Shown here piece after piece: positions 727 to 22,213 of a stretch of 27,162 bases of DNA. The position numbers and the translations under genes are program-made. Source of the stretch: a virus; the IMG/VR virus record IMGVR_UViG_3300032011_004328, positions 1 to 27,162 of that record; one strand, written 5' to 3'. The notes beneath the pieces were generated by a model. It saw only the letters and a list, made by a program, of their open reading frames with translations, was not told where the DNA came from and did not search any database. Every line of letters begins with the position of its first letter. The first letter of the stretch is position 1.

Positions 727-1800
727 TTATGCAGCAACAGTACCGGAAGCGACACCACGTGGGTTAACGATACCAATACCAATGATTTCGCTAACAACCC
801 AACCAAGCTTAAGCTGCTTGGGCTCATCCGCAGGAAGAACCTCGATGTCCTGTCTTACCGGCATAACACCGACAAACTCAGGATCTGCACACGCAAAGAC
901 TGTACCTGCAGGAACAACCTTGGACACGACAATGTCTGCGCCAAAGATGTGGCCATAAAGACCAGTCTGAAGGATTTCTCTCTGTGTTACAGGATCAATC
1001 TGAGATGCACCAGTACCACCAGCAGACTCCCAGTTCAACATATCAGTGAATTCATTGATATTCATGAAGAACTTAGAGGTTACAAGGTCCCAACGATCAA
1101 CCGTTCTCTTCATTTCAACAAGACCAGCCTTTGAAAGCATGGAGTTGTTAGTCGCCGCTAAGGCGCTCACCGCCGTTCCGGCAGCAAGCTGCGCACCAGG
1201 AGCATTAGCATAGTCAAGGTTGACAGCGCCGTTTTCACCACCAGCAGCAGAGCCAGCAAAAGCAAGAGCGGCAAACACGTTTGCATCTTCCTGAGCTTGA
1301 ATCTCCTGTCTTGCCTTCTGCTGAGCACGATCGATTACATTGAACCGACGACGCTTAACTTCTGCAATACGGACAGTTGGGTTTGAAACAACTTCAAACT
1401 CAGGGACGGTCACGCGATCACCGAAGACACGAGACTCTGGAGCAGAACCGTTGCTAGAAACAACGACAGCTGCAACATCAATATCTCGGTCATACACTGG
1501 AAGCGCGCCCTGTGGGAGAGGATCAACGACGAGAGCCTTGCGACCTACACCTTGATAATCCAAGTTCCTACGAATTGGGTTTGCCATAGCCTGACCAAGA
1601 GCAATCTTGCCCTCTTGTGTCATAAGCGCCTGCTTAATCATATCATCTCTCTGAGAATCGTTGAGAGATGGTGCTGCACCAGCAACATCATTAGCCGACT
1701 GAAGCTCTTCTACGATAGAAGCGTACTTCACAATTTGACTCAATGCATCCTTTACGTTGGAGGCGTTGAGTTCACCATTTGTATTAAATATATTACTCAT
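727..1800 (-). CDS. Major capsid protein (HK97-fold)
   Basis: This 357-aa protein is the likely main shell subunit. Evidence is its size, its place at the end of a portal-protease-capsid series, the strong terminator behind it, and its character: a helical, polar N-terminal part (about residues 1-80), then beta-rich segments around RRNLDYQGVG and YDRDIDVAAVVV, a basic stretch EVKRRRFNVIDRAQQKARQEI like the spine helix region of HK97-type capsids, an Ala/Gly-rich segment, and a C-terminal part (GLYGHIFGADIVVSK, then KLGWVVSEIIGIGIVNPRGV) typical of capsid P and A domains. The ATG overlaps the stop of the upstream gene (ATGA), which implies translational coupling. The N-terminal helical region may be a delta-like domain removed during maturation, and it contains IVKYAS near residue 24, but no cleavage site can be proven. 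The gene looks richer in GC than the 22-26 kb genes. Family assignment rests on recognition, not on a search. Confidence 0.85.
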   Translation of the reverse strand: MSNIFNTNGELNASNVKDALSQIVKYASIVEELQSANDVAGAAPSLNDSQRDDMIKQALMTQEGKIALGQAMANPIRRNLDYQGVGRKALVVDPLPQGALPVYDRDIDVAAVVVSSNGSAPESRVFGDRVTVPEFEVVSNPTVRIAEVKRRRFNVIDRAQQKARQEIQAQEDANVFAALAFAGSAAGGENGAVNLDYANAPGAQLAAGTAVSALAATNNSMLSKAGLVEMKRTVDRWDLVTSKFFMNINEFTDMLNWESAGGTGASQIDPVTQREILQTGLYGHIFGADIVVSKVVPAGTVFACADPEFVGVMPVRQDIEVLPADEPKQLKLGWVVSEIIGIGIVNPRGVASGTVAA

Positions 1801-5500: not shown

Positions 5501-5599
5501 CTCTAAAACGCCCACGGAATCTTTGAGCATAGATTTGTCCAAAAGATATCTCTCTATCTCTAAAGCTATTTCAGTATTTTTATTATGCTTAATTATCAA
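2567..5599 (-). CDS. Large virion-associated protein with Pro-Glu-Thr linker, TTG start
   Basis: This 1010-aa protein has no recognised family. The start is TTG at 5597-5599, chosen because AGGAG lies exactly six bases upstream and no in-frame ATG is near (the first Met after it is residue 24). Residues 1-45 resemble the N-terminal leaders of the giant protein upstream and of the 204-aa protein: a helix EIALEIERYL followed by EKTAAPGG. A first domain (about 46-265) is polar and soluble. Residues about 270-307 form a Pro-Glu-Thr linker with repeated TPEPT units. A second large domain contains several aromatic clusters (FLHIWYGAYMSG, GFVMWYYKHH). The last 40 residues form a two-helix segment (RLNKLATFA ... 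INIAIRKFI) like ones in neighbouring proteins. It follows the giant gene after 58 bases and precedes the decoration-like gene. An internal or minor head protein fits, but this is inference. Confidence 0.85.
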   Translation of the reverse strand: MIIKHNKNTEIALEIERYLLDKSMLKDSVGVLESNGIEKTAAPGGKWGGSGIKAWCVSAANLNPDGNDWLTETYDDSGDKDKKKNPTPGMGSDSGGTKDIKDLVKNILFKHYAESAIKYPHPNAVKVMVPAMWLQAEKLSDGSYVTMGEEDYGTGNKVFNDPDDLKRISRSYYTNFINKASISDVAAELDLVLGGNYIGDGSNNISNVTDTDIEALKAARPDLFLNSQWFGSGPIISPDGGYVLNSKVGWDGDFFNGLTNKQVIGLISCDRQAAPAEPTPEPTSPGPSTPEPTTPEPTTPEPTTPEPEIKIPSSDLDPNNERLTILDGGEVKPSNPNNNEYIKLKLDSNKEHIAPNVWYVLEEDLNECPAGWPTIAINSAWINKSLPEADKLYKEYSAWAEEYKTLISKSDEVRSASNSLSICQARGSQADCSDQEAKLKIASENTEYAKLKELLKEAYGKGLVYGCYIGRIDNDWSYSGSGAAQRPGATQYGPPEVYTKKGSKKRPAAKDEKDSGNPEFHGAWWGHGGKGAIPGGDVPLPDLLGEDVVEVQLGTVESGAITVPISIRTFLQGKTETNGRAFDKQIRDILRMPAPASCIMSAMFDPGHPVDVPPEEPGGEWTVRYIYGFDGVGGLIGSNTLSKGHIGVDQYASAYTKSVSRYNEFLHIWYGAYMSGKLHGGPFAPGFVMWYYKHHLADVGPMQFSLALINKCGRSTIPWMELLNQSMDSAKNYFKYTPADHSTRITRPSGKSYHRDPEKATRQLRSDWEGMLNKSYPAWKKEGEILTQRGYIIKNSSTPIYDRIMMNDPDYLSHKIAATNSSGIDSDRAIREFRINKIASNNINKSTNDNELKRDDIESTNFYSDIMKKYADDFLNTYLDDALQDLSKEYAGSFYAGLEGAHKINDNAEEDSYSSYYNVHDETGADLIGSAHPKSINVADAMGNGGLVENAIESGNRMAEIARNTPSGNYRSKHANIVDRLNKLATFASLSGDRQSMKKINIAIRKFIKE
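4679..4790 (-). repeat. Tandem 15-base repeats encoding TPEPT
   Basis: A 15-base unit (gggctcgggagtcgt on the plus strand) is repeated about four times almost perfectly, with degenerate copies at the side toward 4790. It lies in frame inside the 1010-aa gene and encodes a proline-rich linker of repeated PEPTT. The near identity of the DNA copies suggests slippage or recent expansion. The plus-strand open frame here (Gly-Ser-Gly-Val-Val repeats) is a by-product. Confidence 0.9.
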
Positions 5600-5657: not shown

Positions 5658-8600
5658 TTACTCATCTTGTTTTTCTGGCGGCACCGGCCTATTGATACCT
5701 TTCTGTATTACAATAGTTTTATTGCCCTCTGGACGGACTGCGGGCGGCCGTTTGGCAGGTGGCGCATCGGAATCACTGCCGTCAACCTCTGTTGTCTGCA
5801 GGGCCTCAAGCGAAGGGTTTCCTAAGAAGCCAGCATCATATCCATCTCCAGGATAGAACCAATCTGAGGTTGATATATCAACACCCGGAATTCCAAGTGG
5901 CCACAACAAGTTTATCTCACCTTCTCCGCTCGTAAAGGCCGGATCTTGGGACCGCTCCTCAAGGCTTATTGCCCCGGGAGAGACCATATCCGTTAGCAGA
6001 TCATAAAGGGCATCATGTCCGTCCGCAAGGCCTTCTAGAAGACTCCGATTATCTCTATAGTGCTTCAACATTCTCTTCATTTGGCCATCTAATTTACCAG
6101 ATAATATTTCAAGTTGGTCATCCATATGGGCTCTCTGATAAGATGTCATGCCAGTAAACTCTCCCTCTGCAGTCTGGTCCCAAAACTTTTCTTCCTTCTC
6201 TTCTTCTGAGCACCCTCGTGCACGTTGGTCATTGTTGGCCGCCTCCGCCTCTATATGATTACACTTGGTGTAATTATAATAAAACCTCTTATCATCGGTT
6301 GGATTATCCGCACGCTCAGCCGGATCTTTCAACTCTTTAATTATGCGCTTAGTATGGCCGTGGAAAATTGAGATGTCCTCGCCATATGGAATTAATGAAT
6401 CATGGCCACCAGCAATCTCAAACCCATCTATACCATATTCTTCTACCGCATCAACATACTGCTGGTATGTTAGGGAGTCATTGGTTGAATACGATGTATT
6501 CTTGGGATCAGAAATACTTATTTCTCCAGCACCGCTCCAAGACAATTCTTCAAGCTTTCCTTGATAAGCCACAATAACCCTATCCGCTATTACGGCATCT
6601 GCCAGCAACCCATTTATCCTCTCTGCGCTCAAATCTTCTTTATCTATAACATCATTCTGCCACCACATAGAATCCTCGGATGCAACAGATGATAGTCCCA
6701 AGTGTATATTGTGCGAGTCACTAAACCCAGTTGATGCAAGACTCATTTCGACAAGGGTATCTATGTAAACGCCATTGGTCGCATCTGCAAATGGAAAATA
6801 ACAACTCTTGTCATCTGTACAGTCCCCGCCCTTAGATTCTGGAACTCCAGCCATAACAAACGCCCTAACATTTTTCCGTAGTTCTTTATCAAAATCACCA
6901 TCAGCTTCCATGTCTGCAGAAATTGCGTCCTTTTGTCTCTGAAGATTTCTTTTTATAACTTCGTCATCTGCCATGACCAAAGCATCTGTCATCGCACACA
7001 TTGGAAGGTTTACCATAAACTTCTTTAGACCCTCAGGAAAATCCTGTCTAGTGATTATACCCTGCGTGCCGGTCTCCCCTTCCAGGAGGTATTCTGCAAA
7101 CTTCTGGCGAAGAGCGGTGCTTCTATGGGTTCTATCACTAGCCACATATCTGAACGCACTATATGCGCAAAATATACCCCAGCCGCCTAGCATCCCGTAG
7201 CCCACCTTCTCTGGTGTAGAAGCGCCACTCATCTTGAAGAACTTAAGGAAAGCAAGCATTGACGTATGCTCCATCCACTTTAGCATAAGCCATGGTGGAA
7301 GAGTTATAATGGCAGCATTTATACTTATAATATGAGAAACTGTATTATGAACACCCATAAAGGCGAGCATGGCCATGCGCTTCCCAAACTCCGCACTCTC
7401 ATAAAGATTGCTCCATCCCTTAAGGCTAAGGGGGCCCTTCTCGAAAGCGCCCAAAACTCTAACATATCTAGGCATTCTGTCACCAGCCCAACTAAAAGGC
7501 TTCGTATCAAGCCAGAAGCCAAATGCAAGCGATCTCGTATGCAGCCATCCATCGACGCCGTTCTCTGCGGCTGCACCTGGAACCTGAAGAAGCCCCTTTG
7601 CGAAATTCCCCCTCGTTCCCATCATGTATTCAAAGCCAATATCCGTTCCCTTGTTTACAAGAAACTGTGTTGCATCCAAAGTTCTATCTGCCCATTTATT
7701 TCCAGTATACCCGCCCTGCCACCTATCGCGGCCACGGCCAAATGGCGCCTCATGGGCTCTTTGATGAGGAATCTGTGCATCCGGATCTGTATGATACTTT
7801 CTGTTTTGTGTCATGATCCTTCTATGATCATTCATAGCTTTTTTTGTAGCTGCTTTATAACTATCTGCAAGCGCTGATCTTACTGGGCTTGGTAAGTGCG
7901 AATTATGCAGCAAAAACTCTTTTGCAGCCCTATCATCCTTTTTAGTAGTTAAGACAACTAATTCAGACAGCGGTTTTGATGCCTTTGCTTTTACTGCAGT
8001 ATAAACATCGGATGACACCTCTCTATCTACCATAAGGGCGAGCTCCTTAAGATTTCTATAGAATTCATCAAACGTTGCATCTCCTACTTTCAATACCCCG
8101 TCAGAATAGGAGACCATGTCTTCATCAGCTACCTTGCCTTGGTCTCCAAACTTCAGTGGGTTGCCGCCTTCTGTTTGCGGCATCAGCGGCCTTTTTCCGA
8201 ACATACCCTCTGCAGAAAACATGCTCCGAACCACTTTCGCATGCTCTGCCGCCTCCGCTCCGGACATGCCGGCTGGTGCGCCATATCTAGTAAGAAGGTT
8301 TTTTCCAAACTTATTAATAAGCTCATACTCATAGGTTTCTAATAGGGCGAATCCATAGTTATTGTCGCGAGGATGATAATTTATCTGCTGAAGTAGCGTT
8401 ATAACCCCAGCGCCGCCGGGATCATCTGGTTGGCCATACAACAACTTCCACAAAGCATGCTCTTGCGATTGATATGGGGCTTCTTCATGAGGTATTCTAT
8501 TTGGATTAAAGCTACCCTTCATAGGCTTGCCATCGGGCCCTGACTTGGCAGGATTCCCCGTAATAGATGGTAGGTCCCTTAGGAGGTTAAAGTCTTGTCG

Positions 8601-11600
8601 TGCCATTCCGAGATCACCTGTCGACACACTTCGTCCAGAAAGCATGCCCGCTAAAGCTGCAGCACTCTTTAGCTTCACTTGAGCTTCAGCGAGCCTTTCA
8701 TTCCTAAACTTTAAAGCATCTATGGCTACCGCCATTATTGTATCAAAATAATCTATCTTTCTACCCAAACTATCAAGTATCGGTAGATCAAATTGCATTT
8801 GAAGCTCAACAACATCATCCGAAGCCTTGCTATATCCAACCGGCAAAAGCTTCTTACCATCGGGATCAATTCTTATTTGAATCCTGCTGTTTGGCCCTGG
8901 TCTTATTCCTAACTGGTCATATTGATGGAATACTTCTTTTATTTTTCTTGCGAGTGATGCTATTGCGTCACCCTGAAGGCCTCCGGCACCTTCTTGGGAT
9001 AATCTCATAAGAACATCATAGCCTGTGCTTGCACCCGTTAGCTCATCATATGACACTTCAAATTTTCTATATTTAGGATCACCAGCGTTGTCTAAAATAA
9101 CCCGCCCCCTCTCGTCTTTCAATTCCGACCTAAACGTTATCGATACAACACTGCCATCATCGTTCCTATTGACATCAACTACCTCTCCAATTCCAGGAAC
9201 CTCATCGCCCTTTTTGCAATTAAGGCACATTCTAGCTGCATCTTCAGATAACAAATCTAGATCCCTTCTGCTTGGGGCAACCGGCCATGTATACTCAATA
9301 TAATCAGGCGAGGTATCCGGCCCCGTCTCCCTTGGAACGCTAGATATGTACTCACTTGACGAGCCGTCCTTCGATACCGGGTTTAGGCGACTCGCCTCAT
9401 CATATCGGCTCCTGTGCTGCAAGCCCCTTCCATTTGATATTACAAACGGATTATCTGAGTCAATTGCACCCGGATTATCATAAAACTCATTTATAGTGTC
9501 GATATGCCTTGAGTTTTCACCACCGGCTACTCCGGTAATAACATAAGTATTTTTTGGGTCAAAATTAGCTATTTCTGTAGGTTCACCTGTGGCGGCGGCT
9601 CTCGACGCCTGATACCATGTGTCTACAGCCTTGGACCCATCTGTCGTTATAAAAAATGCATCTACTGTGCCAGAAGAAGTGTATACGGATGTCGTTCTAT
9701 ATCTTATTATATCACCCTCTGCTAATTCCCCTGGGGCATCTTCAATCCCAGATCTTTGAAGGATTATTTTTTGTGCATCATCTAGCGGCTGGGTCTCGCC
9801 TACACCCAATATGTGATATACATATGTAAGCCCTCCCTCTTCAACCTCTACCTTAACTGAGGCCTGAGCGGGCCCAAATTGCATAGACTTAAGCTTTCCA
9901 GACCTAATTACGGCCCCCAAATACTGCCTTGTACTGGGGTCAACCATCCTTGTTAGATCACTATTTGAAAAGCCAGAAAGATTCTCAAGAGCATTTAGAC
10001 TTACATTTGTGCTCAACAAGCTATAAGTTCTTCCTCCATCACTAGAGCTTTTAAAGTTATATATTCTATATCCACCGTCAACTCCGGCCTCTATATCAAC
10101 TTGTAAAAATTTATTTTTACCAACATTAAGAGCTATAGACCTTACCTGTCCCGAATCCTCCACAAGATCGACTGAGCTTATCACGCCTCTTAGCCCGTCA
10201 ATAGCCGCTTCTTTATCTGCGGCAGTACTTTCTCCAACAATCTTCCCGACATAATCTTCTATGGGCTTAAAGCTTCTTCTTGAGGCTGCATCAAATAAAT
10301 TTGCAAAAAATGGATTATCCAGCTGTACATAAGAGTTTGCGGACAACTGCCTTTTTATATCTTTCAATATCCCGCAAAGCTCTTGGATGTTGTCATCCAT
10401 ATTCTTTGCGTGTGCAAATAAATTTTCAGCAGCACTATACTCATCTACGTATATGCCCGGGGAAACATTCCAATCTCTGGATATCTTATTGCCCCTACTG
10501 ATACTTTTTAGGTTAGGATATGCATCATTAGTTCTAAATGTAAAGATGTCGCCTGTCCCATGATCACGGAATTCTATTACTACCCCACCAGCATCATCAA
10601 ATGGATTCACGGATATAACTTCGCCATCTATATGCTCTCTGCCCTCTGATCTTAAATCAGGATGTCTCTTTCTCTTCTTTGGATTTAACACTACCCTTAG
10701 CTCATCACCGGCTCGGATTGGCCACACATCTTGATTGTCGCGCGGGTAAGATGCCGCGTCAAAGGCCCTATTCAGCGAAATTTCGGTTTCAAAACCAACA
10801 ATAGGTCTGCCAGTTTCGGCAAAATCCAGAAACCCATCTACATTTGTTATAGACACATTCCCCTCTAATCTGGCAGCAGGTTCTTCAATAATCACCTTCT
10901 CATTTCGACTCATGGCTTGAGCTTTCGTCCTTCTGTCGATTCCGTAACTAGGCAAATCAAAGCTACCCCTGCGATTTGTCTGGACAGAACGCCATACAAA
11001 CGCCACCTCTCGTGGGCCACTTGCGACCGGATCAGTAGTAAACACTATAGCGTCTACAGATACCACTGATCCCTCAGGAGTTTCTATCCCAAGCGCTTCA
11101 TCCCTATTTCTATAAATCCCTATCTTTTCTTTAGATATTCCGGCTCTAGACATATCATCTTCTGTCATGAGTCTGCCTTGCCTAGCAGCCTGCTCAAGTA
11201 TGTCCCTTTGCGCATCGCTATCAAGGCTTCTTAACCTTACAAGTGCTCCGCTACGTGCTCTGGCAAGATCAGAGTCCATTGGCTTCAACGAAAACACTCT
11301 AAATGGAGCCGGTTCGTCAGCGACAAGCGGCCTTAATGTCGAAGCTACAGCCTCAACCCGACCAACGCCAGGGGCTCCTACAACATCTGGCACATAAATA
11401 TCTAACTCATAATATGCTTTTGTGACGGCCGTTCCATCTTCCATTGTGCCACTTGACTCAAGCCCAATTCTAACCCTCCTATTAACCAAAACATCTGGTC
11501 TAAGAGCTCTCTGCTCATCCCCATACCATGCCTCCGGCATGGTATTGGGTCCGCCCTTGGCGGGTTCGTCTGCGTATGTAATATTCCACGGGGCCTCTTC

Positions 11601-14600
11601 AATACCCTCGTTTACAATATAAAGAGGGCCTTTGTGGCTATCAGCATCATTAGCATCTCCGATAACTCTTCTTAGCACAAATAGATTATATCCATCCACA
11701 TATGCTGCCACAATACTGTCATCGCTTTCTAACAACTCTTTTTTAACTCTATTGCTTAGCCTTGGAAGCCCCTCTATGCCTTCGGCAGAATCAAGAGTTT
11801 CGGCCCTCAATATATTTGGTCTGAAAACAAGAGCTCTTGGGTCATCAGCCATGCCTATATTAAAATCAAATAATTCATTTTTAAAATGAATCGTTGGAGT
11901 TAGCCCATATTCCTCTGCAATAGACCTTAAATCTTCGCTAGCCCTATATAGATTTGGATCCCTAATTGATGCGCTTGTTGTGTCCGAAGCAATATCGCCA
12001 CCCTCATCAATCAGTATTAGCCCATGTGGGTCACTAATAACCTCTAATTCGCTATTATCCTTTTTTACAACAAAGTGACTTCCCGGAACGCCATCTTCCC
12101 TGGGGATTGACCTAATAATAACGCCATCTTCATTCCAGTCTGGCATCCTAACTACGTCACCAACTCTATAATCATTAACAACTGCGCCGCCATCCGTGGC
12201 AATTGCGGTAGCTCGCACAGAGTCTTCTCCCGGAAGACCAGTCCAATGATCTATCTTAAAAATAATACTTGGATCTGGTGGCAATGGGTCATCCGGAGTA
12301 AAACCAATTCCTGGGCGGCCAAGTATCTTATATGAAAGTTCCTTCAAGACGCTGATATCTTCGACGGCAGTTACCAGCTCACCCTCATTTATAACTTTTG
12401 CGCCGGATCCATCACCGACAATAAACTGTATTTGAAATTGAGAGTAATACTCACTCCTTTCTCCACCTGGCCCTATCTTATAACCTATTGAGCCACCCTC
12501 GCTAACGGCCTTGCCATCTGGCCCAACCCTTCTTATATAAACGGGGTTCTCGCCGCCGATGCCAATTACTGCATCAAGAGCGCTCCTTTCTGCTTCGGAT
12601 AACGCACGCCTGCCTATACTATCCAACAGAATTGGTTTTCCAGCTGCATCATCACCATATGTAGATATTCCAACGGGAATTCCGTAGCTCCGAAGACCCA
12701 TCTCATTGTCCACAGTCAGTAACTCTTCTATATTAGTAATAGCCTTAGAGTCTGTAAGAGGCTTGTATTCAGAATTAGGATCTAGCTTATTAGCAACCAT
12801 TAGGGCATTATCATCTATTCTAAAGTAAAGATTGTCCAGGTGGCTAGAAGCTTCACTCAAAATATCAATTTTGCCGCTTTCATAAGATATATAGTAATTT
12901 CCATCAAGACCTTTGAATAAGGATACTGCTGGGTTGGGCTGTTCAGATACGCCTTTTAACAGATTAAGCAGCTGAATCTGAGCCTCTGACAGCCCTGATT
13001 CCGCAAGCAAGTTTTGCTTCACTCCTTTTTCTTCACTAAAAAGGAATTTTAAATTTATAGACCTGCTTGATGCTACGTTGTGCATTGATATAGCGGCAGT
13101 GGGTGCCGCACTTATTTTTGTGGAAACCTCTGCATCATCCACCCCCGCATCACGAGAGGCTCTTCTCATTCCGGCAATACTTATCGCCTCCTCTCTATTT
13201 GGATAAGGGCCGCTAAACTCTTGACTTACCCTGGACATAGTATCAATATGTTTTTGCCAAGCAGAACCTGTTACCCTCTGCATATGATTAGAAGCTTTTG
13301 GCAAATCACCTGCGGATGTCCCTAAGAAAACTCTAACCACCGTGTCCTGATGGTCTTTTAGTCTTGAATAAACAGCTATACTGACCGAATTACCTGTTAT
13401 ATTTGAAATTTGTATTGCAAGATTTCCCGTCAAAACATCTGATGCTACGGCCTCAAACCACTCATCCGTGCCCTCTATGGTATATAAAATCTTAGTATTT
13501 CTTAGCGGAGTGTCCCCATCACCATACACCACATAGGCGCCCTTATGTGTGCCAGGATCCTCGTATTTGGTTAAATTTGGAAGAGGACCGGATGATTTAT
13601 TGCCTATTTCCGCACCATCATCTATGCTTCTTCCATACATAATGTCATCTATGGCTTTGCCGTCGATTAAATCTACTACATCATCGGCACCAATCTCTGC
13701 CAGGTCCTCAATACGAGCAGCCGGGCTTTGATCGCCCTGTAGAGTCGGAATATCCCAGCCATCCCAGTCATCCCAGCGAATTTCACCACCGGGAAGATTA
13801 TGACCGGACGAAAGATCATAATCTGATACGACCTCATCCTGCCGACTCGGTACTATGACGGCGTCATCAAGAGATGGAGCAACGCCTCTTGTCTCAGAAC
13901 CTCTTTGGAAGAAGGCGAGCATATCCTCATCTTTATATAAATTGTAGAAACCGCCATCCTCAAGCCTATTTAATGTGGCCCCTACAGAATCCAGCTCGCC
14001 ATGCTTAATATCTTCTAATCTCACTCCATTAATTTCTATTTCTATATCATAGCGCTCCGCATGCGCCGCGTGAAGGTCAGTTATTGCGCGGGAAGCATGA
14101 GCGGACCATCCCTCACTATTCTGCTCTATTATCGCTCTAAGCCTCATGTCAACAGCATCAATTTGATCTATAAGGATAATGGCTTGTCTTTTTGTAATTC
14201 GACGATGCTTATAAAGATCTGCCACTACCCCCTGGAAGAGGGCAAGCTCTTGGGCCAAAGTACGAGCTAGGGATCCGTTTGAATAAAGATCCTGTCTCAC
14301 CCCGGACCCACCACGGCCAGCACGATTCATTTCGCCAATTAGATCCGTAAGACGCTCCATGGCCATGGACAAGGTTGCATTCGAAGTACCATTTTCGCGC
14401 TCCATAATAAACACTGGAGATGGTATATCCTCACCAACCAATGCCCTTCTTATATCAGGGTATGTCTCAAGGTACACACCTCCGGGCTTCATGTCTCCAT
14501 ATGTGATAGCATCGGGTCTTGCGGGCTCATTTGGCCTCCACCCAAAACCATCCATGGCCTTGCCATTATATTGCCCACTTATATAGTCTGCATGATTTAA

Positions 14601-17027
14601 TATAAAATATGCCTTAGCATCAGCCTTTTCTTGCCCATCAAGACTTCTGCCGAAAGCATTATTCATATATTTATCTACATAATTAAACTCCCGATCAAAA
14701 ACAGGCTCCAAATCCCTTGGGTATTTAGAATCATTTATTTTAGTAAGCAATGATGCTTCAAACAAGCTTTCTAAATCCTCTATTACTTTTCCGCTATCGT
14801 CCAGCACGAACCCTAAAGCTCCGCCCGGCAACTCAATCTTCCCTAGATCATAAAGAGCTTGCTTTAAAACTGCGACCCTATACTCGTCCAGCCTTTCAAT
14901 CAGAATGTCCGAAACCCTCCCTACACCATTTGGGCCGGCATTCAAAATATCATCAAGAACCCTAAGAGACTTAGAGTCATCAAATTTATCAATTACTTTT
15001 TTAGCGTCAGAGTACGCTATCCCAATCTTTTGATTAAGAGGCCTCGTTCCATGCATCGAGCTAACTATGGATTCTGTTATTTCATATCGCAACAATGTCT
15101 CTAAGCTTGAAAACCAATTTTCTCTATCAAGGCTGCCTTGATAATTATGAGCTCTAAACGACCCATTCATCGGACCCAAATCGCTATTTTTGCCTAGCGC
15201 CCTACCAAAGCCTGAAATGGATTCGTTATAGTTTATTATACGACGAGTGGGGCGCAAAACATCTGTTAGCTTGGCAACCTCCGCAACAGCATCCTCATAA
15301 GAAGCTGTACCTGGGCCAATACGAATATCTGCAAAATAACTACTTCTGGTACTAGGATGCAAGTCACCAACTGCCTTCATTTGAGTCTCAAGTAGCCTTA
15401 GCTGCTCCATCACCGATGACCTTGAAGTAAGGCCCAAAGAAAGCCTTTGCTGATCGGACAATCCCGCAGTAACCAAAAGAAGCTCAGCCTCTCTTAACTT
15501 AAGAAAAGCTTGCTTTAAGCTGTCGGGGGCCGCATCTGTCCCACCAGTCAAGATTTTTGCCAGCACCTTCGGTTCGCCTGCTCCATCTTTTATAGCACGA
15601 TATAAGCCGTACAACTCCCTATGAAGACCTCTATAGACAGAGGCCCCATTGTTGTCGTATTTGATTGGTATATCAGCTACAACTTGTGATAAAATCTCAT
15701 ACGCCGCAGACTCCAGCGTGGACTCGTCAAACGGGTCTAGCCCAGAGGCCTCCGATGAAAATCGAACCGTTACCCTATTGGGCCTATCCTCGACGGGGCC
15801 AAAGCCGGATAAATACCGCCCCATCGATTGTTCGACTACATCATCAAGCGATGCCGGAACTTCACCTGCAACCTCAGCAGTTTCGTCTGTAGTTTTGGCA
15901 GCACCCTCGGCACCTTCACCTGCAACCTCAGCAGTTTCGTCTGTAGTTTTGGCAGCACCCTCGGCACCTTCACCTGCAACCTCAGTAACTTCGTCTGTAG
16001 TTTTTGCAGCACCTTCGCCCGCAACCTCAGCAGCCTCGTCTGTAGTTTTAAGGTCGCCAAGCTCATCAAGGCGGCCCGCCGGAACGCCCGACTCAACTGG
16101 AGCGGCTACCGTAGTTGACCTATAAATCTTAGATTTTTGGAAAAGCCGTGCGGCAGAGGCTTCCGTCTCAAGGAATGCTTTTAAATAATCATCCTGATTT
16201 GAAAGAGGTCTTATTGGATTAGTAAATACGTCATTGTTTTTAAATGCATCAATTGCGACAAGCCACTCCTTCGCTATAAGTTCAGTCGGGCTGAAGTCAC
16301 CCAGGTCTCCGCTCTCGAAGTCATCAAGAAAGCGGCGCAATTTAGGCTTCTCAATGCCAATTGCTCCACCAATAGTCTTGTATTCATATCCGCCGCCATC
16401 TTTTATCAAAATAACGCTATTTTCATATTTATCAAGAATTAATCTGCATAACCCAATGAGCGCGTCGTCATCAAGATTCCCCGTCTCCGTTACCGTTCCG
16501 AATATTTCCCCGAGAGGATTAGTAAACCGCTCATTAGTCTTCAATAGACTATCAGCCATTAGAAACTTAGCAATTGCTCTAGAATTTTTTTGATGCCCAG
16601 TATAAGCTGCGGCCATGATAGGCCCTGCGTTTTTCGCGGGCTGTGACGTTCCAGACTTATCACCAAAACCCTCAGGGTAGAGCTTTAAGGACTTTGCTCT
16701 ATCTTCCATGTAAGCATTAAGCGCTTTTTCTAAGTCATCTAATGTAACTTCGCCACTCCCAAGGTCTAAAAATTTAACCTCAGGCTTAAGCTCAAATCCC
16801 TTAGCCTTTATGCCACTACGAAGCACCGTCTCAATGCTGCTAAGAGAATCTGCACCGCGAACAACTTTATATATATCGTCAACCGGGACCTTTGTCGTAG
16901 CAACAATTAAATCAATAATACCCGTTGGAGCTGCGGATTTAACAATATGCGGCTTGCTCTTTTGTAAAATCTTTACAAGCTCTTGCTCTATATCGCTATT
17001 TGCCCTGGAAACTGCGCGTATCTTCAT
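5658..17027 (-). CDS. Giant 3789-aa virion protein with C-terminal hydrophobic segments, candidate internal/ejected protein
   Basis: One uninterrupted frame of 3789 codons starts at ATG with AGGAG five bases upstream, two bases after the previous stop. No family is recognised. Residues 1-36 form a leader (helix DIEQELVKIL, then HIVKSAAPTG) shared with two neighbours. Residues 326-389 hold four acidic 18-residue repeats. The middle is a long series of soluble segments, including four stretches that begin with a Gly-Asp step and look like small SH3-like beta barrels (near 1618, 2100, 2432 and 2600; the last has CLNCKKGDEV). Near the C-terminus are hydrophobic stretches at about 3216-3253 and 3274-3296 that could cross a membrane. 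The C-terminal ~450 residues are acidic and end in a Pro/Lys-rich tail. By analogy with huge ejected proteins of podoviruses (T7 gp16, N4 virion RNA polymerase), delivery into the cell with the DNA is possible, but no polymerase or transglycosylase motif was found. It lies inside the head module, which favours a head location over a tail one. Confidence 0.9.
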   Translation of the reverse strand: MKIRAVSRANSDIEQELVKILQKSKPHIVKSAAPTGIIDLIVATTKVPVDDIYKVVRGADSLSSIETVLRSGIKAKGFELKPEVKFLDLGSGEVTLDDLEKALNAYMEDRAKSLKLYPEGFGDKSGTSQPAKNAGPIMAAAYTGHQKNSRAIAKFLMADSLLKTNERFTNPLGEIFGTVTETGNLDDDALIGLCRLILDKYENSVILIKDGGGYEYKTIGGAIGIEKPKLRRFLDDFESGDLGDFSPTELIAKEWLVAIDAFKNNDVFTNPIRPLSNQDDYLKAFLETEASAARLFQKSKIYRSTTVAAPVESGVPAGRLDELGDLKTTDEAAEVAGEGAAKTTDEVTEVAGEGAEGAAKTTDETAEVAGEGAEGAAKTTDETAEVAGEVPASLDDVVEQSMGRYLSGFGPVEDRPNRVTVRFSSEASGLDPFDESTLESAAYEILSQVVADIPIKYDNNGASVYRGLHRELYGLYRAIKDGAGEPKVLAKILTGGTDAAPDSLKQAFLKLREAELLLVTAGLSDQQRLSLGLTSRSSVMEQLRLLETQMKAVGDLHPSTRSSYFADIRIGPGTASYEDAVAEVAKLTDVLRPTRRIINYNESISGFGRALGKNSDLGPMNGSFRAHNYQGSLDRENWFSSLETLLRYEITESIVSSMHGTRPLNQKIGIAYSDAKKVIDKFDDSKSLRVLDDILNAGPNGVGRVSDILIERLDEYRVAVLKQALYDLGKIELPGGALGFVLDDSGKVIEDLESLFEASLLTKINDSKYPRDLEPVFDREFNYVDKYMNNAFGRSLDGQEKADAKAYFILNHADYISGQYNGKAMDGFGWRPNEPARPDAITYGDMKPGGVYLETYPDIRRALVGEDIPSPVFIMERENGTSNATLSMAMERLTDLIGEMNRAGRGGSGVRQDLYSNGSLARTLAQELALFQGVVADLYKHRRITKRQAIILIDQIDAVDMRLRAIIEQNSEGWSAHASRAITDLHAAHAERYDIEIEINGVRLEDIKHGELDSVGATLNRLEDGGFYNLYKDEDMLAFFQRGSETRGVAPSLDDAVIVPSRQDEVVSDYDLSSGHNLPGGEIRWDDWDGWDIPTLQGDQSPAARIEDLAEIGADDVVDLIDGKAIDDIMYGRSIDDGAEIGNKSSGPLPNLTKYEDPGTHKGAYVVYGDGDTPLRNTKILYTIEGTDEWFEAVASDVLTGNLAIQISNITGNSVSIAVYSRLKDHQDTVVRVFLGTSAGDLPKASNHMQRVTGSAWQKHIDTMSRVSQEFSGPYPNREEAISIAGMRRASRDAGVDDAEVSTKISAAPTAAISMHNVASSRSINLKFLFSEEKGVKQNLLAESGLSEAQIQLLNLLKGVSEQPNPAVSLFKGLDGNYYISYESGKIDILSEASSHLDNLYFRIDDNALMVANKLDPNSEYKPLTDSKAITNIEELLTVDNEMGLRSYGIPVGISTYGDDAAGKPILLDSIGRRALSEAERSALDAVIGIGGENPVYIRRVGPDGKAVSEGGSIGYKIGPGGERSEYYSQFQIQFIVGDGSGAKVINEGELVTAVEDISVLKELSYKILGRPGIGFTPDDPLPPDPSIIFKIDHWTGLPGEDSVRATAIATDGGAVVNDYRVGDVVRMPDWNEDGVIIRSIPREDGVPGSHFVVKKDNSELEVISDPHGLILIDEGGDIASDTTSASIRDPNLYRASEDLRSIAEEYGLTPTIHFKNELFDFNIGMADDPRALVFRPNILRAETLDSAEGIEGLPRLSNRVKKELLESDDSIVAAYVDGYNLFVLRRVIGDANDADSHKGPLYIVNEGIEEAPWNITYADEPAKGGPNTMPEAWYGDEQRALRPDVLVNRRVRIGLESSGTMEDGTAVTKAYYELDIYVPDVVGAPGVGRVEAVASTLRPLVADEPAPFRVFSLKPMDSDLARARSGALVRLRSLDSDAQRDILEQAARQGRLMTEDDMSRAGISKEKIGIYRNRDEALGIETPEGSVVSVDAIVFTTDPVASGPREVAFVWRSVQTNRRGSFDLPSYGIDRRTKAQAMSRNEKVIIEEPAARLEGNVSITNVDGFLDFAETGRPIVGFETEISLNRAFDAASYPRDNQDVWPIRAGDELRVVLNPKKRKRHPDLRSEGREHIDGEVISVNPFDDAGGVVIEFRDHGTGDIFTFRTNDAYPNLKSISRGNKISRDWNVSPGIYVDEYSAAENLFAHAKNMDDNIQELCGILKDIKRQLSANSYVQLDNPFFANLFDAASRRSFKPIEDYVGKIVGESTAADKEAAIDGLRGVISSVDLVEDSGQVRSIALNVGKNKFLQVDIEAGVDGGYRIYNFKSSSDGGRTYSLLSTNVSLNALENLSGFSNSDLTRMVDPSTRQYLGAVIRSGKLKSMQFGPAQASVKVEVEEGGLTYVYHILGVGETQPLDDAQKIILQRSGIEDAPGELAEGDIIRYRTTSVYTSSGTVDAFFITTDGSKAVDTWYQASRAAATGEPTEIANFDPKNTYVITGVAGGENSRHIDTINEFYDNPGAIDSDNPFVISNGRGLQHRSRYDEASRLNPVSKDGSSSEYISSVPRETGPDTSPDYIEYTWPVAPSRRDLDLLSEDAARMCLNCKKGDEVPGIGEVVDVNRNDDGSVVSITFRSELKDERGRVILDNAGDPKYRKFEVSYDELTGASTGYDVLMRLSQEGAGGLQGDAIASLARKIKEVFHQYDQLGIRPGPNSRIQIRIDPDGKKLLPVGYSKASDDVVELQMQFDLPILDSLGRKIDYFDTIMAVAIDALKFRNERLAEAQVKLKSAAALAGMLSGRSVSTGDLGMARQDFNLLRDLPSITGNPAKSGPDGKPMKGSFNPNRIPHEEAPYQSQEHALWKLLYGQPDDPGGAGVITLLQQINYHPRDNNYGFALLETYEYELINKFGKNLLTRYGAPAGMSGAEAAEHAKVVRSMFSAEGMFGKRPLMPQTEGGNPLKFGDQGKVADEDMVSYSDGVLKVGDATFDEFYRNLKELALMVDREVSSDVYTAVKAKASKPLSELVVLTTKKDDRAAKEFLLHNSHLPSPVRSALADSYKAATKKAMNDHRRIMTQNRKYHTDPDAQIPHQRAHEAPFGRGRDRWQGGYTGNKWADRTLDATQFLVNKGTDIGFEYMMGTRGNFAKGLLQVPGAAAENGVDGWLHTRSLAFGFWLDTKPFSWAGDRMPRYVRVLGAFEKGPLSLKGWSNLYESAEFGKRMAMLAFMGVHNTVSHIISINAAIITLPPWLMLKWMEHTSMLAFLKFFKMSGASTPEKVGYGMLGGWGIFCAYSAFRYVASDRTHRSTALRQKFAEYLLEGETGTQGIITRQDFPEGLKKFMVNLPMCAMTDALVMADDEVIKRNLQRQKDAISADMEADGDFDKELRKNVRAFVMAGVPESKGGDCTDDKSCYFPFADATNGVYIDTLVEMSLASTGFSDSHNIHLGLSSVASEDSMWWQNDVIDKEDLSAERINGLLADAVIADRVIVAYQGKLEELSWSGAGEISISDPKNTSYSTNDSLTYQQYVDAVEEYGIDGFEIAGGHDSLIPYGEDISIFHGHTKRIIKELKDPAERADNPTDDKRFYYNYTKCNHIEAEAANNDQRARGCSEEEKEEKFWDQTAEGEFTGMTSYQRAHMDDQLEILSGKLDGQMKRMLKHYRDNRSLLEGLADGHDALYDLLTDMVSPGAISLEERSQDPAFTSGEGEINLLWPLGIPGVDISTSDWFYPGDGYDAGFLGNPSLEALQTTEVDGSDSDAPPAKRPPAVRPEGNKTIVIQKGINRPVPPEKQDE
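15861..16052 (-). repeat. Four tandem 54-base repeats encoding acidic 18-residue units
   Basis: Two perfect 54-base copies (15861-15914 and 15915-15968) are followed by a third shortened to 45 bases (15969-16013) and a fourth, partial and diverged copy (16014-16052). They encode the pattern AAKTTDETAEVAGEGAEG at residues 326-389 of the giant protein. The unit is in frame and is Ala/Glu/Thr-rich, probably a flexible or helical spacer after an N-terminal domain. The identity of two copies points to recent duplication. Confidence 0.95.
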
Positions 17028-17029
17028 GC

Positions 17030-17461
17030 CTACTCCTCTTCAAGTATCTCATCTATAGTACGCTCTATCTTATAAGCAAGCTCGATTTCTCTCTTATCTG
17101 TGGCCTCTTTTAACAGGTCTCTTAGCCTAGCCACAACCTCCATTTCAGACGGGCCATCATCTGCATAATTTTCAACAGCATTTTCTTCAGATTCTTCGTC
17201 AGATTCTTCATCATACTCTACGACACCATCTTCTGCGGAGCTCAAAGTCTCCACGGCCCTATTTGCATCGTCAGTAGCTTCAGTGAGCTCTTTCATACTG
17301 TTTGTGGCCTTGTCAACCTCGTTCGTAGACTGAGTGATGTTGGATTTTTTTAGTATGGCCTCCAAAGATTCTATTGTAGACAAAACCTTCTTTTCAAGCT
17401 CCTGTGCAACCTCACTGTTATCCCATGCAGCCCTATCTTCCTTACTCCACTTAATGGTCAT
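17030..17461 (-). CDS. Acidic helical protein, unknown function
   Basis: The 143-aa product starts at ATG with AGGAG seven bases upstream and ends two bases before the giant gene, so the two are probably co-translated. It is strongly acidic and helical: residues 15-60 have coiled-coil character (EVAQELEKKV, then IESLEAILKK), a middle stretch is very rich in Asp/Glu/Ser (EYDEESDEESEEN), and residues 106-143 form two more helices ending LEEE. The helix EVAQELEKKV also fits the leader-helix pattern of three neighbours, but K[ST]A does not follow. An assembly chaperone or internal scaffold for the giant protein is possible from position and composition alone. Confidence 0.8.
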   Translation of the reverse strand: MTIKWSKEDRAAWDNSEVAQELEKKVLSTIESLEAILKKSNITQSTNEVDKATNSMKELTEATDDANRAVETLSSAEDGVVEYDEESDEESEENAVENYADDGPSEMEVVARLRDLLKEATDKREIELAYKIERTIDEILEEE

Positions 17462-18289: not shown

Positions 18290-18904
18290 TTAGGCCTTTA
18301 AAATCTTGTCTATAGTAGCGGAAACCAAGTCAGAAGCGAAGAATTTCTTTTCACTATTGAGATTGAATGCAATCTTTTCTAGCTCAGAGGCCACAACGAC
18401 CTTTTTCCTCGCTTCCTGCATGGCGTCTTTTCTAATGCCAAGAGCAGTAGACTCAACTACATCAGCAGCAAAGTCTTCACCCTTGCCTCTTAGGCTATTA
18501 GCAATTTTACCAAGGCCACGCAAAATCTTCACTGTTTTTTTATCCGCAGAAATGCTAATCTTGCTCTCTCTAACTCTATCTGCCTTATTATTTGCTTCAA
18601 GCGAACGCTTCTTTTTCTCATAAGCGTTTGCTGTAATGTTCTGCAAAATCTTTTCTTCGTCAGATGTGTCATCTGAACTGAAATCTTCTATCTTATTCTC
18701 TAAGTCACTTACGCTTCTATTTGGCTCATCTTTATTGTTAATAATAAAGTCGCCAGCAGTTGAGTTTAAGATATTATCATCAGGATCATCTAAAGATGCA
18801 GTTTTTTTGACATGCGCCCCAAGGTTCTCTTGGGACGCATTTTCATTGACAAGTCTAAGAAACTCTGCAGCTAAATTATCACCAGAATATCTATTACCTA
18901 TCAT
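18290..18904 (-). CDS. Helical head-associated protein with leader and duplicated two-helix module
   Basis: The 204-aa product starts at ATG with a purine-rich AAGGGGG site upstream, nine bases after the protease/scaffold stop. Residues 1-40 form a leader with helix NLAAEFLRLV followed by HVKKTASLDD, matching leaders of the giant and 1010-aa proteins. Residues about 40-115 are polar, acidic then basic, and probably disordered. Residues 128-157 and 172-202 are two copies of one helical module (LGKIANSL ... DFAADVVESTALGI and LEKIAFNL ... FFASDLVSATIDKI). It is rich in Lys, Asp, Asn and Ser with no cysteine or tryptophan. Its place right behind the protease/scaffold, and its cleavable-looking leader, suggest an internal core protein of the head. 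No family is recognised. Confidence 0.85.
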   Translation of the reverse strand: MIGNRYSGDNLAAEFLRLVNENASQENLGAHVKKTASLDDPDDNILNSTAGDFIINNKDEPNRSVSDLENKIEDFSSDDTSDEEKILQNITANAYEKKKRSLEANNKADRVRESKISISADKKTVKILRGLGKIANSLRGKGEDFAADVVESTALGIRKDAMQEARKKVVVASELEKIAFNLNSEKKFFASDLVSATIDKILKA

Positions 18905-18913
18905 AAAGCCCCC

Positions 18914-21900
18914 TTAGTCCCACATTGAGACAAGAGCGTCTATTGTAGATGATGGTTGCAGCTGAGATGAATCCTCAACGCCAATGTTGATTCCGCCAAG
19001 ATCCGAAGCGACCTTTACCCTGCTAACCGACTTTGCATTTGCTATGCTACGCTTAAACGCCTCAAAAGCTCTGTTGTCAAACAGCATGATTTCATCAACC
19101 TGCCTGTCAAGAGCCGGCTTCGTACTTGCGATAAGACCCTTTCTTTGCATATCCATGCCAACATCATATGCCCTTCTGAGCTTAAGCTTGTAAGTCTCAC
19201 GATCATTTTCATCTGCCTTTTGATTCATTGTTTTTGCAAGCTCATCCTTAACATACGTGCTGGCAACAACGGCGACATCATCATCTGCTTCATTTGTAAC
19301 GACCGCATCATCTGCTTCATTTGTAACGACCGCATCATCCGCTTCATTTTCAACAGCAGCAGCATCTGCTTCATTTTCAACAGCAGCGTCATCTGCTTCA
19401 TTTTCAACAGCAGCGTCATCTACATACATAGCATCCATAGCCTTCTTAGCCAACGCCTCTCTATTGGCCCTTCTTTGAGACAAAGTCTTCTGCTCTGCGC
19501 TCTTAAGAAGGTTTTCTCTTCTCCTTCTTCGCATATCAACAGCCTCTGCAACAAGAGTGTTGACTCCACCATCTTCAACTTGCGTAGCAGGTGCCTCATC
19601 GTTTGCACCCTCACTTCTCACAACTTCTGCGTCAGCACTCTTCATAAGAGGAGCAAGGCTTCTTGCCATCTTAGTAAGAGCTCTTGATTCTCCACAAATA
19701 TGGTTTGAGTCTCTAATTGCGGCATATGCAAGGTTTCTAAGCTCAGAAGCTTGCGCTCTTGTTAAATTTGAAATATTTGCATATGTCTCATTTATCATTT
19801 TGAGCTCACCTGCAGAATCACGAAGCTCAGCAATGGCGGTCTTAACCTGCCTTGAGACATTACGAGCCAAAGAAACACCATCAAGCCCATCGCCCTCAAG
19901 CCCAGCGTCGGCATCATCCTCTAGGTCTATATTAATATTAACTTCTTCTTCTCCGCCCATATCTCCCAAAAGGCCCCTTAGGGTCTCTACCTCTTGCTCG
20001 ATGGCAAGAAGAGCATTCTCTGCGGCCTCTCTAGGATCTTCTTCCGCTTCCTCTGGAGCGGCCTCTTCCAGCATCTCTTCTGGAGCAGCTCCTAAATCTG
20101 CCGCCAATTCCTCCGGAGCAGCATCGCCCATCTCTGGAAGCTCAGGCATGGCTGGAAGCTCAGGCATCTCCTGCGCTGACTTAAGAAGTGCGCCAACATA
20201 TTCAAGCCCACTCTCTCTAATCTGGGCAACAACTTCTTTTGCATAATCCTGACTGTTTAGCCATTCCCAATTGCTATTGAGATCTGGTCCGAAAATTTTC
20301 CCTGCAGTCGTAGATATGACCTTGTCTTTTCCGGCGAAGACCTCAAATCTTGATCCTGCGCGGTCAACTGTTCCGTCTAAGCCCTTTCTATGACTGAGCT
20401 TTGTTCTTAGGCCGGGGCCCTTATATGCAGCACGCTGCACAAGCTTCTTCTTTTCCATATCTCCAGGAAAGGTTCCCTTGTCACCACCCATGTTTCCATC
20501 TTGATGCATCTGCTTGTCTTGATTTCTGTCATATGGCTCACTCTTATATGTATTTGGCTCAACGCCATCTGCGCCGCCCTGATGATAAGCCATCCTCCTA
20601 AGCCTTCTCTCTTCTAACTCAGCACGGCTGAGCTTCTCCTTAGTTTCCTTATCGCCAGGAACCATACCATCAGTGCCTCCAAGATTCCCATCTTGCTTCA
20701 TCTGCTTGTCCTGATTCTTGTCATATGGCTCACTCTTATATGTATTTGGCTCAACACCATCGGCGCCACCCTGGTGATAAGCTATCTTGCGGCGTTGTTC
20801 CGCACGCTTACGTAGTCTTGATTCATTCATGATATCCTCCATTAATGATTTAATTATTGTTTTAGACTCTTTTCCACTGGCACTGATAACGGGACCGCTA
20901 TCACGCATCACACCACCTGCGTCAAATTCACCTCTACCTTCCTCCCATCTAAGATCAGAAGGTGTAGATCGTCCTGCAAACATTGATGTGCCTCCGTCTG
21001 CGCCAGTAGGCAGAGCGGAACCTTCGGGAAGCAAACTTTCGCCACCCGCAGCAGTTTCAGGGTCCGTAAAGCTCTCGCCAAACGGGCCCTCAATATCTTC
21101 TTCGAGCACGGAGTCATCTCCGTCACTCGTAAATGCATCTATAATCTTTTTGAACGCATCATAAGCAGCAGTAGCCGCCTCACTTTCATCCCTTCTCTCA
21201 TTTGCTTGCTCATAAGTAAAGCCAAATGCGGCTCTCGTGTCATTAAGCGCTCTAGCAAACTCAGAGGCCTCGTCAGGAGTTGTACTTTCAGAGTATGCGT
21301 TTTTTACTAAATTATTTTCTTTTAAAAATCCAGCAACTATCTTTCTGCGTTGTGGTATCGAGCAGCCATCATCGGAGCATGCTGCCTTCATTATATTATT
21401 AAGATGCTCAGCTTGAGGCTCACTAAGTCTTGAGACCATAGAGTCAAAGTTATCTACCCCATAATTTATAAACTCGTTTCTATAGCTATTTAATGACGCT
21501 ATGCAGCTTAAAAGCCTAGCGCCCGGCTCCGCAGGCTGTACGACGAGACTATACTCTATCGGCTTCAAGCCCACATTTATTTCACCATAAGCGCTTCTGT
21601 TTGTAACATGGTCACAATATTCATCAAGAGTCGTGGCAACATTTGAACATTCCGTGCATATAGAGTTTTCAACGGCAGTCCCCATGGAACCGTACCTCAC
21701 AAGGCCCGTCTCAACCTTTCTTGCCAGATCTGGGTAATTAATTTTGTCAAGCGCACAAAGCCCAACCACCTGCTTGAGCTTGTCATCATAATAAGTATCT
21801 AAGATTATACCCCTTATGCCGTCAACAGAGCTGGACTCATGGTCCCTACATAGTGGCATGCCAATCCAATCAGCTGTCGCCTTCCTCAACTCTGCTTCTG

Positions 21901-22213
21901 GAAATATATCACCATTATTATTCTTATGCGGCTGAACATTCCCATGCCACTTCCAGTTTTTATCAAAATGCCCCCAGGCATCTTCTCCGCCAGAAAGCTT
22001 TTTTATTGTCCCAGAATCATCAATCAAAGAAGACTCTGCTGATTTTAAAAATATTATAGAAAAATATAAAAAGTCATCAGACTTTGGTGCTATACTTTTT
22101 ATTTTGGATGCAAACTTATTAAACCTTGCAATAATTTTCGGATCCGCAAGAATAGCAGACTCATCAATCTTTATGCTTCTGTCTATATGAGATTTAGCTC
22201 TTTTATTAATCAT
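18914..22213 (-). CDS. Prohead maturation protease fused to a scaffold-like region
   Basis: The 1099-aa product most likely processes the prohead and forms part of its inner scaffold. Residues about 85-235 resemble the herpesvirus/HK97/T4-type prohead protease fold: NNNGDIFPEAEL, then PLCRDHESS with candidate catalytic His125, then RYGSMGTAVE with candidate Ser176, about 50 residues later as usual for the fold. After the serine comes a Cys cluster (C186, C189, C200, H202) that may bind zinc. The remaining 850 residues are acidic and helical with low-complexity Glu/Ala stretches, two 36-residue repeats (478-513, 542-577) and five 9-residue acidic repeats (932-976), all scaffold-like. Residues 29-59 match a helical module seen in neighbours. 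Five K[ST]A sites (K57, K678, K791, K858, K904) could be self-cleavage sites. No strong ribosome binding site is visible. The third catalytic residue is not assigned. Fusion of protease and scaffold in one chain is known from herpesviruses and some phages. Confidence 0.8.
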   Translation of the reverse strand: MINKRAKSHIDRSIKIDESAILADPKIIARFNKFASKIKSIAPKSDDFLYFSIIFLKSAESSLIDDSGTIKKLSGGEDAWGHFDKNWKWHGNVQPHKNNNGDIFPEAELRKATADWIGMPLCRDHESSSVDGIRGIILDTYYDDKLKQVVGLCALDKINYPDLARKVETGLVRYGSMGTAVENSICTECSNVATTLDEYCDHVTNRSAYGEINVGLKPIEYSLVVQPAEPGARLLSCIASLNSYRNEFINYGVDNFDSMVSRLSEPQAEHLNNIMKAACSDDGCSIPQRRKIVAGFLKENNLVKNAYSESTTPDEASEFARALNDTRAAFGFTYEQANERRDESEAATAAYDAFKKIIDAFTSDGDDSVLEEDIEGPFGESFTDPETAAGGESLLPEGSALPTGADGGTSMFAGRSTPSDLRWEEGRGEFDAGGVMRDSGPVISASGKESKTIIKSLMEDIMNESRLRKRAEQRRKIAYHQGGADGVEPNTYKSEPYDKNQDKQMKQDGNLGGTDGMVPGDKETKEKLSRAELEERRLRRMAYHQGGADGVEPNTYKSEPYDRNQDKQMHQDGNMGGDKGTFPGDMEKKKLVQRAAYKGPGLRTKLSHRKGLDGTVDRAGSRFEVFAGKDKVISTTAGKIFGPDLNSNWEWLNSQDYAKEVVAQIRESGLEYVGALLKSAQEMPELPAMPELPEMGDAAPEELAADLGAAPEEMLEEAAPEEAEEDPREAAENALLAIEQEVETLRGLLGDMGGEEEVNINIDLEDDADAGLEGDGLDGVSLARNVSRQVKTAIAELRDSAGELKMINETYANISNLTRAQASELRNLAYAAIRDSNHICGESRALTKMARSLAPLMKSADAEVVRSEGANDEAPATQVEDGGVNTLVAEAVDMRRRRRENLLKSAEQKTLSQRRANREALAKKAMDAMYVDDAAVENEADDAAVENEADAAAVENEADDAVVTNEADDAVVTNEADDDVAVVASTYVKDELAKTMNQKADENDRETYKLKLRRAYDVGMDMQRKGLIASTKPALDRQVDEIMLFDNRAFEAFKRSIANAKSVSRVKVASDLGGINIGVEDSSQLQPSSTIDALVSMWD
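19286..19420 (-). repeat. Five tandem 27-base repeats encoding DDAAVENEA
   Basis: Three copies of DDAAVENEA-type units and two of DDAVVTNEA occupy residues 932-976 of the protease/scaffold. The two sub-types cluster separately, which suggests duplication after divergence. The stretch is highly acidic and predicted helical or disordered. Confidence 0.9.
20483..20590 (-). repeat. Second copy of a 36-residue direct repeat in the scaffold region
   Basis: Residues 542-577 (AYHQGGADGVEPNTYKSEPY onward to GNMGG) repeat residues 478-513 with only a few changes, at a period of 64 residues. The DNA is also nearly identical. A weaker similarity continues beyond (GMVPGD against GTFPGD), so the original unit was probably longer. 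Its function is unknown. Confidence 0.95.
20675..20782 (-). repeat. First copy of a 36-residue direct repeat in the scaffold region
   Basis: Residues 478-513 of the protease/scaffold (AYHQGGADGVEPNTYKSEPY onward to GNLGG). It is preceded, like the second copy, by a cluster of arginines and lysines (EQRRKI here, RRLRRM there). See the partner copy at 20483-20590. Confidence 0.95.

Follow-up and report, generated by a model that had tools for sequence, protein, structure and literature searches.

A conserved N-terminal leader on head-block proteins of an uncultured phage related to Bacillus phage G: a probable capsid-targeting propeptide

The sequence analysed, the 27,162-base IMG/VR virus record IMGVR_UViG_3300032011_004328 (positions 1 to 27,162; hereafter the window), comes from an uncultured jumbo/huge phage, a relative of Bacillus phage G, and represents its head-gene block. 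The minus strand encodes all main genes of the window, which succeed one another as follows: portal, p241, p98, p775 (DUF192), p1099, p204, p230, p143, a giant protein of 3789 residues (the giant), p1010, p236, major capsid protein (MCP) and p205. The MCP shares 47 % identity with gp27 of phage G (structure PDB 6wkk), and the protease of the window is homologous to phage G gp19 (31 %). Between the portal and protease genes on one side and the capsid gene on the other lie genes for proteins that begin with a common leader, a short helix with the motif K-x-A behind it. This leader, of which no description was found in the open-licence literature, is treated here together with the following features of the window.

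727..1800, minus strand: major capsid protein, 357 residues, phrog_2522
1720..1764, minus strand: MCP residues 13-27, ASNVKDALSQIVKYA, similar helix and KYA in an N-terminal extension
2987..2995, minus strand: K869-Y870-A871 of p1010, directly ahead of its conserved C-terminal domain
5477..5485, minus strand: K39-T40-A41 of p1010
5537..5578, minus strand: leader helix of p1010, residues 8-21, NTEIALEIERYLLD
5658..17027, minus strand: the giant, 3789 residues, probable head cargo
16932..16940, minus strand: K30-S31-A32 of the giant (IVKSA/AP, the slash marking the possible cut), candidate protease site at the leader end
16959..17000, minus strand: leader helix of the giant, residues 10-23, NSDIEQELVKILQK
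17378..17419, minus strand: leader helix of p143, residues 15-28, NSEVAQELEKKVLS, recognized by profiles and conserved at the corresponding gene of distant loci
18797..18805, minus strand: K34-T35-A36 of p204
18842..18883, minus strand: p204 residues 8-21, GDNLAAEFLRLVNE, leader helix of the second subtype, conserved across its family (23 distinct sequences)
18914..22213, minus strand: p1099, with a prohead protease domain at about residues 79-240 and, joined to it, a long scaffold-like part containing many Phi-x-K-x-A motifs

Similar N-termini of the giant, p1010 and p204 had been reported in a first-pass annotation, the residues and distances of which proved exact on re-reading: DIEQELVKIL at residues 12-21 and K30-S31-A32 in the giant (codons of residues 1-36 at 16919-17027, minus strand), EIALEIERYL at 10-19 and K39-T40-A41 in p1010, and NLAAEFLRLV at 10-19 and K34-T35-A36 in p204. 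Taken by themselves, these three N-termini do not exceed chance, the best ungapped 12-mers yielding p=0.07 (giant/p1010), 0.36 (giant/p204) and 0.22 (p1010/p204) against random N-termini. The strongest carrier, p143, had been overlooked; it reaches p=0.0045 with the giant and p=0.0026 with p1010, and these two each resemble p143 more than each other or p204. With profiles built from relatives, the likeness of the giant and p1010 becomes significant.

Relatives, on contigs of up to 435 kb, were collected in two sets. The first comprises 80 loci retrieved with the MCP. For the second, the conserved neighbour p230 found no match as a single-sequence query; an alignment of p230 then gave 80 loci, and thereby more distant relatives (48-58 % identity in p230). 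From anchored 14-mers (a looser regular-expression seed was discarded), a 14-column profile of the relatives' p204, p1010 and p143 leaders was constructed, leaving out those of the window. Of the 3776 windows of the giant, the one at residue 10 fits this profile best (16.8, against 12.2 for the next); 0.1 % of 883 background N-termini reach 16.8. A profile from 77 relatives' p143/p1010-type leaders scores 17.1 on the giant, matched by 0 of 1805 open reading frames (ORFs). When each family was left out in turn, p1010 and p143 were supported by the remaining leaders (0.45 % and 0.34 % of the background reaching their scores), and the helices of p204 (30 %) and MCP (12 %) showed no significant match. 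At least two leader subtypes therefore exist, the giant clearly belonging to the p143/p1010 type; the candidate assignment of the giant's helix type to MCP and p204 was rejected, since the profile match is not significant. The consensus is S-E-[VI]-[FM]-x-E-[YLF]-E-[KR] for the p143/p1010/giant type and [GA]-D-x-I-A-x-E-[FM] for the p204 type. The carriers named by the first-pass annotation are thus retained for the giant and p1010, with p204 moved to a second subtype, p143 added and MCP probably also belonging to the set.

A search of relatives' genomes with the leader profile, proposed beforehand as a check, bore the leader out: across seven genomes with 1817 ORFs, each of the 16 highest scores belongs to one of the three leader families or to a protein at the gene position of one, and the best outside protein, which lacks K-x-A, stays below the giant with 15.5. 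Out of sample, 30 proteins from 19 distant loci were scored (p143 position and next large gene, none used in training), with 87 % of them attaining at least 8, 67 % at least 10 and 57 % at least 12, as compared with 3.0 %, 0.8 % and 0.3 % of 881 background proteins. A blind scan detected the leader on a 1048-residue ORF of locus L078, which had not been recognized as a p1010 homologue and adjoins a separately encoded p1010 C-terminal domain. In several loci (L231, L238 and L244), two or three adjacent different proteins upstream of p230 carry p204-like leaders. The leader is shared, N-terminal and present on head-block proteins, and it is kept while the bodies behind it vary. A signal common to the N-termini of head-block proteins, with a prohead protease encoded in the same block, is well supported by these sequence comparisons. 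The protein p98 had been considered as an extra carrier and was rejected, its look-alike helix being internal in relatives that have p98 fused behind p241. One of the proteins with a p204-like leader, of 216 residues (L231, 5335-5985), contains a CCHC zinc-knuckle-like stretch (CTFCGKFGHEQKNC) and is possibly a nucleic-acid-binding head cargo.

Behind the helix, the motif had been given as K[ST]A. Lysine and alanine are indeed conserved; the middle residue is not limited to S or T, and the motif is therefore written K-x-A. It is present in 88 of 93 family members: 29/31 in p1010, 23/23 in p204, 21/24 in p143 and 15/15 in MCP, with means of 12.2, 8.2, 11.6 and 3.5, respectively, in shuffled sequences. 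The linker between helix and lysine varies (standard deviation of the K offset, 4-5 residues), and in p1010, p204 and MCP the motif is usually followed by S, G or Q. When the 124 families with members in four or more genomes were ranked for K-x-A-[SGAQTN] within residues 13-55, p204, MCP and p1099 took the first three places. In whole proteins, Phi-x-K-x-A followed by a small residue (Phi = L, I, V, M or F) was most enriched in p1099 among 153 families (29 seen, 4.6 expected), p204 ranking third (11 vs 1.5), p1010 fifth (19 vs 5.5) and p775 eighth (13 vs 3.4); other high-ranking families include genes upstream of terminase, and p236, p230 and p205 are not enriched. Control motifs (reversed, K replaced by R or E, A replaced by V or G) showed no comparable enrichment. 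The giant contains this extended motif once in its 3789 residues, at the leader site, as against 2.0-2.5 occurrences expected for the whole protein. In six of seven genomes, the densest 20-gene window of Phi-x-K-x-A overlaps the head block. The peak of the seventh genome (G002) lies outside it and was set aside as a repeated helical-hairpin tag. This tag, MIKELIKLAxxLDxRGLxKEADxLD, stands at the start of numerous small proteins that are otherwise unlike, and in others it is internal or C-terminal (G002, 144-162 kb, L120-L121; also G004_118, G004_125 and G005_64); Pfam holds no family for it.

Within p1010, a second site (K869-Y870-A871) precedes the C-terminal domain, as does the same motif in those homologues that could be anchored. 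An ORF of its own encodes this domain in L071, L078 and L079, with the first methionine beside the motif (MQKKAD). A possible third leader type, MK(I/V)..., W-x-x-[DE]-F and K-x-A-[ND], was noticed in a gene adjoining terminase (G001_105, G002_45, G004_117, G005_57 and G006_67); gp11 of phage G (L112, 6979-8160) shares this start (MKNKSV...GWIEDF...NKEAN).

The prohead protease that the first-pass annotation had placed in the same cluster is p1099, which matches phrog_18299 "head maturation protease" (E-value 1.5e-10). Its residues H125 and S176 are invariant in 30 aligned sequences and are the presumed catalytic residues. Two tandem repeats of ~64 residues with R-x-A-Y-x-Q-G-G lie between the protease and the C-terminal part of p1099, and acidic ADDAAVENE repeats occur near residue 950.

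In the MCP, residues 1-44 constitute an extension not present in phage G gp27. The helix and KYA of this extension are similar to the leaders, the helix match not being significant; A19, L20, I23, V24, Y26 and A27 are invariant in 23 homologues. By N-terminal sequencing, mature phage G MCP comprises 255 of 282 residues (PMC5646251), a length which places the cut at ALA27/Q28. The equivalent site in the window is ALG69/Q70, situated in a stretch invariant across 23 homologues. If the phage G cut is conserved, everything before Q70, leader included, would be removed with the propeptide. An AlphaFold model of the MCP was too poor for use (mean predicted local distance difference test, pLDDT, 46).

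Searches for homologues of the giant employed its N-terminal 500 residues, a C-terminal stretch and a two-sequence alignment. The only relative found is a 3317-residue fragment on a 135-kb contig (G009/L006), the N-terminus of which is lost at the contig end. No match was obtained in Pfam, PHROG, PDB or the phage collection (the last tested with the C-terminal half), hydrophobic segments are weak only (maximum 1.41), and an AlphaFold model of residues 2591-3789 (mean pLDDT 29.8) was too poor for use. Tandem repeats KTTDExAEVAGEGAEGAA occupy residues about 330-395 (window 15840-16040).

In this phage group, the leader is probably part of a propeptide system for capsid targeting, with the helix loading proteins into the head and p1099 probably performing the cut. 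Each cargo or core protein would begin with a short amphipathic helix, N-capped and joined to K-x-A-[S/G/Q/A/N] through a variable-length linker. The helix may dock its carrier onto the scaffold or core of the forming prohead, the presumed binding partner, and closure of the shell around this core would enclose the docked, unrelated proteins, even one of 3789 residues. Cleavage after K-x-A by the protease domain of p1099 would then release the cargo from its leader, and the scaffold part of p1099, full of Phi-x-K-x-A, would be cut into pieces. Of the targeting signal suggested in the first-pass annotation, the shared and conserved N-terminal signal on head-block proteins stands; its destination in the head is suggested by gene context and by the T4 and P1 precedents. 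Removal of the leader at K-x-A, with alanine before and S, G or Q after the candidate cut site, is no more than plausible: the motif is concentrated in head-block proteins, but the phage G MCP is not cut at K-x-A. The wider proposal, according to which one leader code loads unrelated proteins of up to 3789 residues and the protease obeys a new cut rule readable from genomes (cleavage after the alanine of Phi-x-K-x-A, before S, G, Q or A), is put forward tentatively.

Several observations weigh against this interpretation. The only experimentally placed cut in the lineage, that of phage G MCP, is of the ALA/Q kind, the giant's leader rests on one sequence, and the helices of p204 and MCP do not match the other leaders significantly. 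The window's own p143 has no K-x-A behind its helix, and the p143 family is without overall enrichment of the motif. In distant loci, K-I-A often falls within the leader helix itself. Since the helical-hairpin tag, carried by small proteins of G002 (151-162 kb) that are unrelated, likewise contains Phi-x-K-x-A, the motif need not mean cleavage. These copies at the N-termini of several small G002 proteins, together with the phage G cut at ALA/Q (PMC5646251), favour a view of Phi-x-K-x-A as a helix-packing motif (compare the hairpin LIKLAxxLDxRGLxKEADxLD), with targeting being real and the cut located elsewhere or absent. This view is judged somewhat unlikely: no hairpin stands behind the sites of p1099, MCP and the leaders, and S, G or Q mostly follow the motif in p1010, p204 and MCP.

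Alternatively, the helix could be a permanent core-assembly element rather than a removable tag, p143, p204 and p1010 being scaffold or core proteins that bind each other or p1099. The small size and acid-richness of p143 and p204 would suit this role, as would the conservation of their N-terminal blocks as wholes (e.g., WSKED...SEV..ELE in p143), but variable bodies behind a fixed leader, with K-x-A at changing distance, rather resemble a tag with a processing site, making the permanent element an unlikely explanation. That the leader directs proteins to the tail, a membrane or a replication compartment is improbable: although sequence alone does not name the receptor, the genes of the carriers are flanked by the portal and protease genes on one side and by the capsid gene on the other, and other giant proteins of relatives (3182-3472 residues) are without the leader. 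Chance resemblance of ordinary amphipathic N-terminal helices, compatible with the non-significant pairwise scores inside the window, is hardly credible in view of the relatives' profiles, the K-x-A counts and, above all, the out-of-sample result, which already disfavours it.

Viewed as a targeting propeptide, the leader has counterparts in characterized phages. The capsid targeting sequence of T4 measures 10-20 residues (PMC3012670, PMC5694885) and is conserved on the otherwise diverse bodies of internal proteins (PMC3012670). The T4 signal of internal proteins and Alt is likewise a short N-terminal element on differing bodies, and T4, too, encodes a prohead protease; the present leader has another helix sequence, is 30-40 residues long, carries K-x-A and is putatively removed. 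In phage P1, the 30 N-terminal residues of DarB (250 kDa) suffice to load a reporter into heads, and 9 do not (PMC9024508). There as here an N-terminal signal is found on a giant protein, whose head loading is presumed in the present case. A common consensus of the P1 Dar proteins was suspected and not found by BLAST, whereas a consensus is seen across several proteins here. The jumbo-phage prohead protease of phiKZ/SPN3US removes N-terminal propeptides of several head proteins (PMC10052503), most of which, in contrast to the leader, comprise 111-254 residues in SPN3US. By direct reading, the T4-type cut motif (L/I)-x-E does not occur before K-x-A in the giant, p1010 or p204, and [S/A/G]-x-E is absent from the giant's leader; p204 (AAE) and p1010 (ALE) have it solely within the helix. 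Having neither cut motif, the leader was assigned to neither the T4 nor the phiKZ system. The head module of phage G (gp19 protease, gp27 MCP) provides a homologous protease and MCP, as well as Phi-x-K-x-A in gp13, portal gp14 and gp19; it differs in the missing 44-residue extension of gp27 and in that no homologue of the giant was found in the phage collection, tested with the C-terminal half. Taken together, these comparisons suggest that the leader may function like the targeting signals of T4 and P1, as part of a wider conserved leader system. As the head contents of giant phages are mostly unknown, a leader recognizable from sequence would allow head cargo to be predicted from genomes; it furthermore provides a testable protease cut rule and might be used as a tag to load foreign proteins. 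If the new cut rule is true, all of the head cargo and the sites at which the scaffold is cut could be listed from genomes.

Some further observations concern neighbouring genes. Inside the head-gene block, p775 (window 22458-24785) combines a DUF192 domain (E-value 7.8e-20) with a YHS-like stretch. Beside p230, relatives L206, L227, L229 and L234 possess inserted GIY-YIG-like and helix-turn-helix-containing (homing-type) genes. The MCP of one relative is split into two ORFs of 162 and 135 residues with a gap between them (G006, 79551-80573), indicating a frameshift, an intron or an assembly error. Large in-frame insertions resembling inteins interrupt the portal genes of relatives, two in G001 (90249-94109) and one in G005 (84229-86451).

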